Source: Enterobacteriaceae bacterium UBA2655 | GTDB taxonomy: Bacteria; Pseudomonadota; Gammaproteobacteria; Enterobacterales; Enterobacteriaceae | Assembly: GCA_002359495.1 (NCBI GenBank) | Contig: DENB01000089.1 | Coordinates: forward strand, 1 to 21,136 | Length of the DNA: 21,136 nt | Reading direction: 5' to 3' | Shown: piece by piece, positions 4,453-21,136 of the stretch | Layout: each line of letters opens with the position of its first letter | Position numbering within the stretch: position 1 is the first letter of the stretch | Position numbers and translations under genes: made by a program | The notes under the pieces: generated by a model | What the model was told of the DNA's origin: nothing | Databases searched by the model: none | Seen by the model: the letters and a program-made list of their open reading frames with translations, nothing else

Positions 4453-5403
4453 TTATGCCCTCGCTTCCGTCAGCGCAGAGGCGAGCGTTCGCTTCGCCAG
4501 AATCAACTTGAACTCGTTTTCATGCGTCGGGTGCGCATCCGCAAACAGCCGGTCATATACCGCCTGCGCCCCTTGCGGCAGCGCGCCATCGGCATCTTCG
4601 CGCCGCCAGGGTTTATGCGCCACGCCGCCCAGCGCCACGCGCCCGCTTCCGTCCTGCTGCACCACGGCGGCCACAGAGACCAGCGCAAAAGCGTAAGAGG
4701 CGCGATCCCGCACCTTGCGATAGATATGCGTGCCGCCGAGCGGACGCGGCAGCGTGACGCCGGTAATCAGTTCGCCTGACGACAACGCGTTCTCCAGATG
4801 CGGCGTATCGCCCGGCCCGCGGTAAAAGTCGGCGAGCGGGATTTTGCGCTCGCGTCCCTCCGGGCTGACCGTCTCCACCACGGCGTCAAGCAGACGCATG
4901 GCAACCGCCATATCGCTGGGATGGGTGGCGATGCAGGCGCGGCTTGCGCCGATGACCGCAAGCTGACGGCTGAAACCTTCTAACGCCGCGCAGCCGCTGC
5001 CCGGCAGCCGCTTGTTGCAAGGTTGATTGGTATCGTAGAAATAAGGACAACGCGTGCGCTGCAGCAGATTGCCGGCGGTGGTCGCCTTGTTGCGCAGCTG
5101 ACCCGAGGCCCCGGCCAGCAGCGCCCGCGAAAGCACAGCGTAATCCCGACGTACCCGCGCATCCGCAGCCAGATCGGTATTGCGCACCAGCGCGCCGATG
5201 CGCAGCCCGCCGTCGGCGGTCGGCTCGATTTTATCGAGCGCCAGGCCGTTAACGTCGATCAGGTGCGTGGGGGTTTCGATTTCCAGCTTCATCAGGTCCA
5301 GCAAATTGGTTCCGCCTGCAATAAATTTTGCACCGGGGGTGCGCTGTGCGCTTGCGGCGGCGTCTGCGGGCGTGGTTACGCGTTCATAGGTAAAAGCCTT
5401 CAT
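4453..5403 (-). CDS. paoB: Periplasmic aldehyde oxidoreductase, FAD / [4Fe-4S] subunit PaoB
   Basis: A 316-residue FAD-binding middle subunit of the xanthine oxidase family, close in length to E. coli PaoB (YagS, 318). [11 protein letters not shown] at 29-39 is the FAD pyrophosphate-binding loop. The segment with [13 protein letters not shown] and [10 protein letters not shown] (Cys 119, 129, 138), plus Cys 157, corresponds to the insertion that holds an extra [4Fe-4S] cluster in PaoB-type subunits. The subunit passes electrons between the Fe-S clusters and FAD. The frame is open up to 5469, but the ATG at 5403 is chosen because it overlaps the paoA stop by 4 nt (ATGA), indicating translational coupling, and gives the family N-terminus MKAFTYERV. 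Confidence 0.93.
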
Positions 5404-6119
5404 GATTGTTCGCTCCCGGAGACCTCGGTTATCGCAGCAAGGATGTTGGAGTAAGCTCCGCAGCGGCAAATATTGCCGCTCATACGCTCGCGTATTTCAT
5501 CAGGGGTGACCTGGGGAGGTGAAACCAGATCGAGGGTAACGTGGCTGGGAATGCCCATTTCGATCTCTTTCAGTGCCGCCACCGACGAGCAGATCTGGCC
5601 CGGCGTGCAGTAGCCGCACTGGTAGCCGTCATGCTTCACAAACGCGGCCTGCATCGGATGCAATTTGTCGGGCGTCCCCAGACCTTCAATGGTGGTCACT
5701 TCGGCATCCTGGTGCATCACGGCCAGCGTCAGACAGGAATTGATGCGACGACCATCCACAATGACCGTACAGGCGCCGCACTGACCATGGTCGCACCCTT
5801 TTTTAGTGCCGGTGAGGCGCAGATGTTCGCGCAGCGCGTCCAGCAGCGTCGTGCGCGTATCGACTTCCAGCCGCCGGGCGATGCCGTTCACGTTCAGTGT
5901 CAGAGGGGAGGTTTGCGGCGGCGGAGTGGTCGGCGGTTCGCCGGCGCTGAACGCCTCGGAGGGAGAAACGGCTGCGGTTGCCGCGGTTGCCGCGCCGACG
6001 ATCAATAACTCCCGCCTCGTCAGGCTGAGATCGTACTCTTCGTTCTGTTGTCCGGGATTATCGCTGCTGCAAGCATCATACCGATGCCGTTTATTAACCT
6101 CGTTCTCTGGATTGCTCAT
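5400..6119 (-). CDS. paoA: Periplasmic aldehyde oxidoreductase, [2Fe-2S] subunit PaoA with Tat signal
   Basis: A 239-residue small subunit with two [2Fe-2S] domains. The plant-ferredoxin-type cysteines are 109, 114, 117 and 129; the second set is 168, 171, 218 and 220 (CGYC and CRC). A twin-arginine signal spans about residues 31-59 (SLTRREL, then an alanine-rich hydrophobic stretch), so the assembled PaoABC enzyme should reach the periplasm folded and with cofactors. About 30 residues precede the Arg-Arg pair, as in E. coli PaoA (YagT). The start at 6119 is backed by GGAGG 6 nt upstream. It is the first gene of paoABC. Family knowledge: the enzyme detoxifies aromatic and other aldehydes. No obvious operator was found in the 188 bp upstream. 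Confidence 0.94.
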
Positions 6120-19575: not shown

Positions 19576-19669
19576 TCATAGCGCATAGGTGCTGTACTGC
19601 ACGGTAAATTTCACCGCCAGAATAATGATTTCCATACACAGGCCAATGATGGCGATCAAAGTCAGCTAA
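19576..19669 (-). pseudogene. C-terminal remnant of a truncated membrane-protein gene
   Basis: Reading on the minus strand, the last 29 codons before the TGA at 19576-19578 encode LTLIAIIGLCMEIIILAVKF followed by TVQYSTYAL, a single membrane helix with a short tail. A TAG at 19667-19669 precedes it in frame, directly beside the left 60-bp repeat. The rest of the gene is missing, so it appears to have been cut off at that junction. The stop is 18 nt before the start of the exported 108-residue protein. Family not recognised. Confidence 0.45.
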
Positions 19670-19670
19670 A

Positions 19671-19730
19671 AAACAACGACCGTATAGCCACACAGTTGTA
19701 ATTCTGAATGATCCAGATTGTTAATAGCCT
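19671..19730 (+). repeat. 60-bp direct repeat, left copy
   Basis: Matches 21027-21086 in direct orientation at 54 of 60 positions without gaps; the blocks CGTATAGCCACACAG and ATCCAGATTGTTAATAGCCT are identical. The two copies start 1,356 bp apart and enclose the decayed oxidoreductase start and the two-gene toxin cassette. The left copy begins exactly where the minus-strand remnant ends. Confidence 0.9.
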
Positions 19731-19820
19731 TTTTGCAATGCTCAGAATGTTTTTTAAATTCATTCATCAGGGTCAACGTGAAGCGTTCGATTTAGTGATA
19801 ACAGCGGAACAGGAGAGAGG

Positions 19821-19958
19821 ATGAGAATAGGCATTGTGGGATAGGGTACGGGCGGCAGACATTTTCACGCGCCTTTTATCTGTGCGGCCAAAGGGCTGAA
19901 GCTGGCCGGGATCGTGGCTCGCGCGCCGCATGCGCAGCTAAGTTTATTTAGCTTATAG
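19821..19958 (+). pseudogene. Decayed 5' fragment of a Gfo/Idh/MocA-family NAD-dependent oxidoreductase
   Basis: ATG at 19821, with AGGAGAGAGG upstream, starts MRIGIVG, then TAG at 19842-19844, then GTGGRHFHAPF and about 18 more residues (AAKGLKLAGIVARAP). This is the typical Rossmann N-terminus of Gfo/Idh/MocA oxidoreductases, which read VGYGTGG at this place; TAC (Tyr) to TAG is one base change. The similarity stops near 19937, and the frame closes at TAG 19956-19958. About 300 residues of the normal protein are absent. So this is the leftover front end of a gene, killed by a nonsense codon and truncated where the next cassette begins. Confidence 0.8.
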
Positions 19959-20016
19959 TTAAATTCAGTAGTAAAATGCTACGCCTCGTCGAGAAATGAC
20001 GATTATGGAGTCTATC

Positions 20017-20544
20017 GTGAAATTCAAAATTCAGCATTTACAGGCAGCAGTGGCGCTGGTACTTACCAGTTTCCAGCCGCAACCAAAAGCGGTTGCGTGT
20101 CAGCCTGAAATTGTAGAGCGGGTTTATGAGATGGGCGCCAGAATTAACAAAACTGATATCAAAGATCTCACCGCTGCGCTTAATACACTGGCGGAGGAAC
20201 TGCGCGACAGCCGCGCCGAACTTTCCCATTATGCTGACAACGATTTTGAGGGCGCGGTCAGAACGGCTAAAGAAATCCAGAGCCAGACTGTCCATGTCGC
20301 CGGCATTGCTGAATCTTTTGTTCTGATGCTGCCTGAAAAAGATGTCATCGTCTCTTACGACAAAAACTCCGTTGAGTTTGGTTTCGTTAAGGCCATTAAA
20401 ATGGTCAGCATAGCGACCAGAAACTACCTCAGCCTTATTGACCAGCTTACCCGGCCAACCGATGCGCGCGATTCAGGCGTCAATCTTTTAGCCATGAACC
20501 ATCTGCTGGACACGGGTAACAAGGCCGCTGTTAAATGGCGTTAA
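20017..20544 (+). CDS. Unrecognised protein, probable partner of the YafO-family toxin
   Basis: About 175 residues from GTG 20017, chosen because GGAG (20007-20010) sits 6 nt upstream; the frame also contains ATGs at 19996 and 20005, which lack good ribosome sites and would give up to 182 residues. I recognise no family. It is predicted mostly helical, with charged amphipathic stretches (IKDLTAALNTLAEELRDSRAEL) and a more mixed C-terminal half. It shows none of the features of the Phd/YefM-like antitoxin YafN (about 97 residues) that normally pairs with YafO, and no clear DNA-binding helix-turn-helix. Its last 10 nt overlap the toxin gene, the order and coupling expected of an antitoxin. Role as antitoxin or toxin modifier is inference from context. 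Confidence 0.7.
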   Translation: MKFKIQHLQAAVALVLTSFQPQPKAVACQPEIVERVYEMGARINKTDIKDLTAALNTLAEELRDSRAELSHYADNDFEGAVRTAKEIQSQTVHVAGIAESFVLMLPEKDVIVSYDKNSVEFGFVKAIKMVSIATRNYLSLIDQLTRPTDARDSGVNLLAMNHLLDTGNKAAVKWR

Positions 20545-20951
20545 CGGCTGAATACAGTCACGTTACGTGGAGTGAGTTTTTTCAGCCCACATTTGCCGTT
20601 TACCCGGACCTCGCAAATCAACTCAAAGCCGAGTTCATCATTTACAAATCAACTGGCGCGCCTTCAAATTTGCTTGGTCGTGATGCGCCTTTTGACTTCC
20701 CACCGTTCGCGGTTGATGCGAATGTTCAACATATTCACGTTAATCTGCACTTTCAGTTGACCTGGAACGCCAGGCAAGAAAACTACAACCGAACCTCCGA
20801 CCACTATCTCGTTTACACTGAGCATATGTGGGAGAGCGGCCGCTTTCTGTTGATGGGCCTGATTACACCAGCCCATGAACGTATGCCTGCCCGAGATACC
20901 CGGTTGCTCAAATATTTTTCTGACGTCGCAGAAAACTTTCACGCCTCTTAA
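20535..20951 (+). CDS. YafO-family toxin (ribosome-dependent mRNA interferase)
   Basis: 138 residues, E. coli YafO being 132. The family pattern is visible across the protein: FIIYKSTG (near 34-41), LLGRDAPFD (46-54), HIHVNLHF (near 67-74), NRTSDHYLVY (near 85-94), LLMGLITPAHE (near 105-115) and the C-terminal ARDTRLLKYFSDVAENF, aligning with YafO segments FISYKRDG, FGRDALYD, AHIHLAN, FSRTNDEAHLVY and LLIAILKPEPH. Family knowledge: YafO binds the ribosome and cleaves translated mRNA, stopping growth. The ATG lies inside the end of the preceding gene (10-nt overlap) with only a distant AAGG, so its translation probably depends on upstream translation. The gene is more AT-rich than the catabolic genes. 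No YafN-like gene is nearby. Confidence 0.78.
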   Translation: MALTAEYSHVTWSEFFQPTFAVYPDLANQLKAEFIIYKSTGAPSNLLGRDAPFDFPPFAVDANVQHIHVNLHFQLTWNARQENYNRTSDHYLVYTEHMWESGRFLLMGLITPAHERMPARDTRLLKYFSDVAENFHAS

Positions 20952-21026
20952 ATCAACAAAAATAGATTAACGGATTAAAAAATTCGTTACTGCTCCGCTC
21001 AAAACCTTCATGAAAGCGACTTTATA
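20952..21026. other. AT-rich tail after the toxin gene
   Basis: 75 bp without a gene. AACGGATT (20969-20976) and AATTCGTT (20981-20988) can pair with one G-U across AAAA, but no T-run follows, so termination is uncertain. Confidence 0.25.
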
Positions 21027-21086
21027 AAACAACCGCCGTATAGCCACACAGCTGTAATTTTAAGTGATCCAGATTGTTAATAGCCT
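21027..21086 (+). repeat. 60-bp direct repeat, right copy
   Basis: Direct partner of 19671-19730 (54 of 60 identical). A T-run follows both copies; after this one the sequence passes at once into the IS200/IS605-type end. Confidence 0.9.
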
Positions 21087-21091
21087 CTTTT

Positions 21092-21136
21092 TGACATCCT
21101 CCCCGCCCTAAAGGTCGGGGATTTCTACAGCTAGAC
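21092..21136 (-). mobile_element. End of an IS200/IS605-family element (tnpB side), continuing outside the window
   Basis: TGACATCCTCCCCGCCCTAA followed by AGGTCGGGGATTTCTACAGC is the hallmark terminal sequence of IS605/IS1341-type elements. The subterminal hairpin has arms CCCCG (21101-21105) and CGGGG (21116-21120). Read on the minus strand it is the segment that normally follows the tnpB stop codon, so tnpB, if present, would lie beyond the right edge and be transcribed leftward. Such elements move as single strands by a Y1 transposase and make no target duplication. Only about 45 bp are visible, so neither the exact outer boundary nor the completeness of the element is known. Confidence 0.75.

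Follow-up and report, generated by a model that had tools for sequence, protein, structure and literature searches.

The window, by which we mean the whole 21,136-nt stretch analyzed here, comes from Enterobacteriaceae bacterium UBA2655 (DENB01000089.1). Near its 3' end lie two adjacent plus-strand genes, the second encoding a toxin of the YafO family and the first a protein, here called the partner, that is a candidate antitoxin. The features of the locus are as follows.

19927..20016, plus strand: upstream stretch common to plasmid relatives, from the alignment
20007..20010, plus strand: Shine-Dalgarno-like GGAG ahead of the partner GTG, with 6 nt spacing
20017..20544, plus strand: partner gene, GTG start, 175 aa, candidate antitoxin; all-helical model, matching no family
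20017..20100, plus strand: first 28 codons of the partner, a conserved hydrophobic, signal-peptide-like segment (from composition, conservation, and codon conservation)
20485..20538, plus strand: C-terminal helix of the partner, residues 157-174 in the AlphaFold model
20535..20544, plus strand: 10-nt overlap of the partner and toxin genes, read from the sequence
20535..20951, plus strand: YafO-family toxin gene, 138 aa; PF13957; RelE/HigB-type model

The partner reading frame is open from an ATG at 19996, which would give 182 aa. A preliminary description of this DNA placed the start there while giving the length as about 175 residues; the length fits a start at GTG 20017. ATG 19996 has no Shine-Dalgarno match, GTG 20017 follows a GGAG, and the Klebsiella relative L004 has a GGAG with the same 6-nt spacing ahead of an ATG that corresponds in position to GTG 20017. 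The start is most likely GTG 20017, with a product of 175 aa. Homology with plasmid relatives spans about 19927 to 20967, and the stretch upstream of the pair is conserved in this alignment. The promoter presumably lies within 19927..20016; a scan of this stretch for sigma-70 promoters found none.

Both reading frames are present on the plus strand with the 10-nt overlap that had been described, and an identical overlap occurs in relatives L002, L003, L004, L010, and L033. It likely reflects translational coupling. Two adjacent, coupled protein genes, one of them a toxin of known family, make up the layout of a type II toxin-antitoxin system. Both genes are under purifying selection: in three comparisons each, dN/dS was 0.09 to 0.11 for the partner and 0.03 to 0.04 for YafO, values that are rough at a dS of 0.6 to 1.7 (a fourth comparison, with L004, was saturated). 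Because of this selection and the wide recurrence of the pair, we regard it as more than a chance arrangement.

The second gene had been called YafO, and its product does match PF13957 (YafO), with E 4.5e-21 and a score of 75.3 bits, well over the cut-off of 25. It also matches the NCBIfam YafO model (E 5.5e-14), at 52.8 bits, which is under the equivalog cut-off of 153 bits. The toxin model has the RelE/HigB-type (BECR) fold of the YafO family, and residues F34, G48, H68, L92, Y94, H114, and F135 are invariant across 27 aligned YafO proteins, including 6 encoded beside YafN-sized partners. Identity to E. coli YafO is ~27%, and a PADLOC search with the toxin gave no match. Based on its family, the protein is predicted to be an mRNA endonuclease.

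The partner, in turn, gave only chance-level matches in Pfam, NCBIfam, PADLOC, and PHROGs (best E 0.021, in PADLOC). No known DNA-binding family was found in these searches, which counts against an antitoxin role, since YafN autoregulates its own operon (PMC2814082). Type II antitoxins usually, though not always, have a DNA-binding domain and operator repeats. The AlphaFold model (pLDDT 80.5, with the first 30 residues among the less certain parts) consists only of helices, at residues 2-19, 23-28, 30-41, 45-75, 77-103, 108-113, 119-145, and 157-174. Nothing among solved and viral structures matched the model at E <= 0.001, and its VIA-align list holds matches commonly given by helical bundles.

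Large partners of several types occur beside YafO, and profile comparisons with hhalign bear on how these types relate. HK639-type and Pseudomonas-type partners are related, judging from an E of 2.6e-8 (probability 94), and HK639-type and pJN2-type partners perhaps are as well (E 2.6e-4, probability 19). The window type matches the HK639 type weakly (E 0.041), no better than the HK639 type matches YafN (E 0.035, taken as noise). An intermediate from Enterobacter, P0090, is 31% identical to the window partner over 112 residues (BLASTP E 3e-17, a single comparison) and also matches phrog_8416, the HK639 family (E 0.0018), as does the Pseudomonas protein P0084 (E 1.8e-5). Common descent of the partner types appears likely from these similarities, if not proven for all of them.

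How widespread is the pairing? In PLSDB, the toxin occurs in 620 records (E <= 1e-5). Separate tallies, not matched to these record by record, give 257 records with the window-type partner or a distant relative of it, 317 with the pJN2-26-type partner, the commonest plasmid type, and 43 with an HK639-like Klebsiella-type partner. We also surveyed the open reading frame (ORF) upstream of the toxin in 55 sources, a set that includes duplicates of the window (L001), of L005 (L036), and of L006 (L040). A toxin ORF was present in 54 (L034 has no intact toxin). The ORF upstream of it was at least 150 aa in 40 cases, 97-105 aa, the size of YafN, in 9, and 53-65 aa in 4; in L039, where a contig end cuts the locus, it was 80 aa. 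A large partner was found in 19/20 viral contigs, the exception being L039, and a large upstream ORF in all 11 plasmid and phage records (L002-L012). With the very distant L011 (Saccharobesus, upstream ORF of 150 aa) left out of the branch, an ORF of 174-213 aa lies upstream in 29/30 loci from phages, plasmids, and viral contigs, the 30th being L039, and the junction with the toxin in these 29 ranges from a 10-nt overlap to 11 nt of spacing. Among 19 loci from other assemblies of the order and class, in which chromosome, plasmid, and prophage were not told apart, the upstream ORF was YafN-sized in 8, large in 7, and short in 4.

A tree was built from 40 different toxins, without the incomplete L017, L018, L019, and L039. 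One side holds 28 of 30 large-partner toxins and one short-partner toxin, and the other holds all 6 YafN toxins, 3 short-partner toxins, and 2 large-partner toxins; the backbone is weakly supported (53/80), and long branches come together. YafO with a large partner makes up an extensive plasmid and phage branch. The preliminary description had proposed a new toxin-antitoxin arrangement and suggested following both families across genomes. The arrangement is a real, conserved alternative to YafN, with the large upstream ORF accompanying the toxin in those 29 of 30 branch loci, and it extends well beyond this genome. YafO genes beside another antitoxin, which had been named as evidence against the proposal, do occur in the YafO family overall and not in the branch loci examined.

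Elsewhere in the survey, a short ORF of 53-65 aa, distinct from both YafN and the large partner, precedes the YafO-like gene in four other assemblies (L016, L027, L031, and L032). By eye, the L016 and L027 ORFs, both 59 aa long, are similar. These short ORFs are possibly a third partner type.

The surroundings of the pair vary with the element that carries it. In the annotated phage-plasmids L002, L007, L010, and L012, a glutaredoxin gene precedes the pair and an integrase gene follows it, and three of the four have an annotated phoH before the pair. The pair sits between tail genes in phage HK639, downstream of a CI-like repressor in Pseudomonas phage R656, and near traI in pECL_A. Such neighbors are typical of modules for maintenance or lysogenic conversion. 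Only one of the four phage-plasmids, L012 (pKPHS1, Klebsiella), has a putative reverse transcriptase gene (4524-6008) between the pair and the integrase; it is absent in L002, L007, and L010.

In the window itself, a 68-nt direct repeat, 88% identical, flanks the pair at 19667-19734 and 21023-21090, the sole two copies in the assembly. It may be a trace of the arrival of a ~1 kb cassette. Between the left copy and the partner, a short interrupted ORF at 19821-19943 breaks off near the onset of plasmid-like DNA; by eye, a motif in it resembles the start of a Gfo/Idh/MocA-type oxidoreductase, and a Pfam search with a 33-residue piece of it gave no match. Right after the second repeat copy, 21085-21136 looks by eye like the end of an IS200/IS605-type element.

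The reading we favor, with a probability of about 0.62, is a type II-like toxin-antitoxin module carried by mobile elements, with the helical upstream protein as its putative antitoxin. The analysis supports the toxin family, the modeled fold of the toxin, the fold class of the partner, the gene overlap, selection, and recurrence. RNase activity is inferred from the toxin family, and binding, neutralization, release, and the role of the module are likewise inferences. The all-helical antitoxin would be translated first, with toxin synthesis coupled to it through the overlapping start and stop. It would keep YafO inactive, most likely by direct binding through the conserved N-terminal hydrophobic helix, the C-terminal helix, or both. 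If the element were lost, or the antitoxin depleted by a phage or by stress, YafO would be free to cut mRNA. Cells carrying the plasmid or prophage would thereby be favored, so that the element persists, and infections could be aborted. The preliminary description had raised a possible defense or stabilization cassette; in PADLOC, neither gene gave more than a chance-level match to a known defense system.

Decayed copies of the pair bear on this reading. In L063, the toxin has an internal stop and the partner is intact; L084 keeps 162/175 partner residues and has no toxin match; both genes are broken in L034/L064 (one genome); and in L085/L086 (two related plasmids) the partner is broken and the toxin match lacks its first 19 residues. 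The toxin is thus damaged in all four independent loci read and the partner in two, and none of the four combines an intact toxin with a broken partner, as predicted if the partner is the antitoxin. Shortened partner proteins were also found in the protein search, apart from these loci.

The N-terminus of the partner is harder to accommodate. By composition (hydrophobicity and charge), it resembles a Sec signal peptide in 15/20 partner loci, using cut-offs (mean hydropathy of 1.8, one or more K/R, and no more than one acidic residue) that were chosen after the values were known. Among K-12 controls, whose labels were partly our own assignments, 8/8 exported, 2/9 inner-membrane, and 0/22 cytosolic proteins passed, along with one more protein of uncertain label; 0/9 YafN proteins did. 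A signal-peptide-like N-terminus is ill suited to a cytosolic antitoxin, which counts against the antitoxin reading. The partner might instead be exported by Sec or anchored in the membrane, making the pair a lysogenic-conversion or superinfection-exclusion unit with its two proteins in different compartments. The place of the HK639 pair among tail genes fits such a unit. However, we consider it unlikely. The five partners that fail the composition test are those of HK639, Saccharobesus, and three pJN2-26-type rows (L007, L008, and L012), so the commonest plasmid type is without signal-like features in the three rows tested.

The pattern of conservation also argues against simple export. In all four partner families, conservation is higher in the first 30 residues than in either the middle or the last 30 (first 30/middle of 0.78/0.66, 0.74/0.55, 0.89/0.60, and 0.69/0.52, from 30, 4, 6, and 19 chosen full-length sequences, respectively). 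In contrast, in 5/5 comparisons of the exported controls MalM, LamB, MalE, and AphA (twice), with assumed signal peptide lengths, conservation is lower in the signal peptide than in the mature part. The last 30 partner residues exceed the middle in conservation in three of the four families, the window's own not among them. In pairwise comparisons, the first 28 residues exceed the middle in 7/8 partner pairs; the edge is slight between the window and L010 (0.32/0.25), and the order is reversed between R656 and L054 (0.14/0.25). Across six partner loci, the fraction of identical codons is 0.69-0.70 in the first 42 codons (20017-20142) and 0.38-0.63 in later windows, with one later window equal to the first 42 codons at fourfold sites. 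Because its conservation is the reverse of that in the signal-peptide controls, the N-terminus is probably a specific functional element. We favor a toxin-binding or stability helix and keep export as a rival explanation.

A further reading is an export-gated toxin-antitoxin pair, in which the conserved signal-like N-terminal helix would tie the stability or location of the antitoxin to the Sec machinery or its chaperones. Disturbance of the membrane or of protein export, by a superinfecting phage or another stress, would then release YafO. We hold this to be a rather doubtful proposal. If true, the toxin-antitoxin pair would act as a sensor of membrane state.

It is also conceivable, at longer odds, that the partner serves as a regulator or is cargo with no tie to the toxin, with YafO controlled otherwise (by an RNA or a distant gene) or no longer toxic. 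The ~27% identity to E. coli YafO leaves room for this; however, the tight linkage over diverse elements, the strong purifying selection, and the shared invariant residues speak against it. Finally, the shared gene order and toxin family might suggest that the partner is a YafN/Phd antitoxin that has diverged strongly and gained a helical region. This is very improbable, as the model has no strands and thus lacks the mixed strand-helix N-terminal domain of YafN/Phd, Phd/YefM families were absent from the Pfam matches up to E 1, and hhalign of the window-type partner against eight YafN proteins gave E 0.98. The partner had been described as helical and not Phd-like, and the structure and profile checks proposed at the time agree, recognizing no divergent YafN/Phd.

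Because a Phd/YefM antitoxin is absent, the pair is not a YafN-YafO module. It resembles YafN-YafO of E. coli K-12 (dinB-yafN-yafO-yafP) in having an upstream gene beside a PF13957 toxin, in the order antitoxin-toxin (PMC2814082), but the partner has 175 aa and is all-helical, where YafN has 97 aa, YafO is only distantly similar, and the pair is found on plasmids and phages without dinB alongside. The partner also differs by profiles from the antitoxins of the RelE-fold modules HigBA, DinJ-YafQ, and YefM-YoeB, and toxin identity to these is low. A hydrophobic antitoxin segment and a possible dependence on export chaperones have a parallel in HigBA1-SecB of Mycobacterium tuberculosis; however, the segment there is C-terminal and a SecB-like gene lies in the operon (PMC5105189), whereas the partner has its segment at the N-terminus, with no chaperone gene seen alongside the pair.

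Our literature search found no description of this partner. YafN-YafO is the sole YafO pairing in the list consulted in PMC8790059, and the YafO passages of a RelE-superfamily study give the order antitoxin-toxin and mention no other partner (PMC11980606). YafO is reported in P. aeruginosa prophages, with no antitoxin named in the passages concerned (PMC10449497, PMC12066637). An E. coli survey summarizes 6 YafO toxin clusters with 13 partner clusters, 8% known (PMC10790755), and the helical partner may be among those 13.

Altogether, the pair is real, conserved, and widespread, and an antitoxin role for the partner is likely, if not proven. Given the conserved signal-like N-terminus, an unusual release mechanism deserves testing. 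If the partner neutralizes YafO, one toxin family would be served by unrelated antitoxin folds, the helical one in its plasmid and phage branch, and antitoxin replacement would be directly testable. There would then also be a function for hypothetical proteins on several hundred Klebsiella, Enterobacter, and E. coli plasmids.
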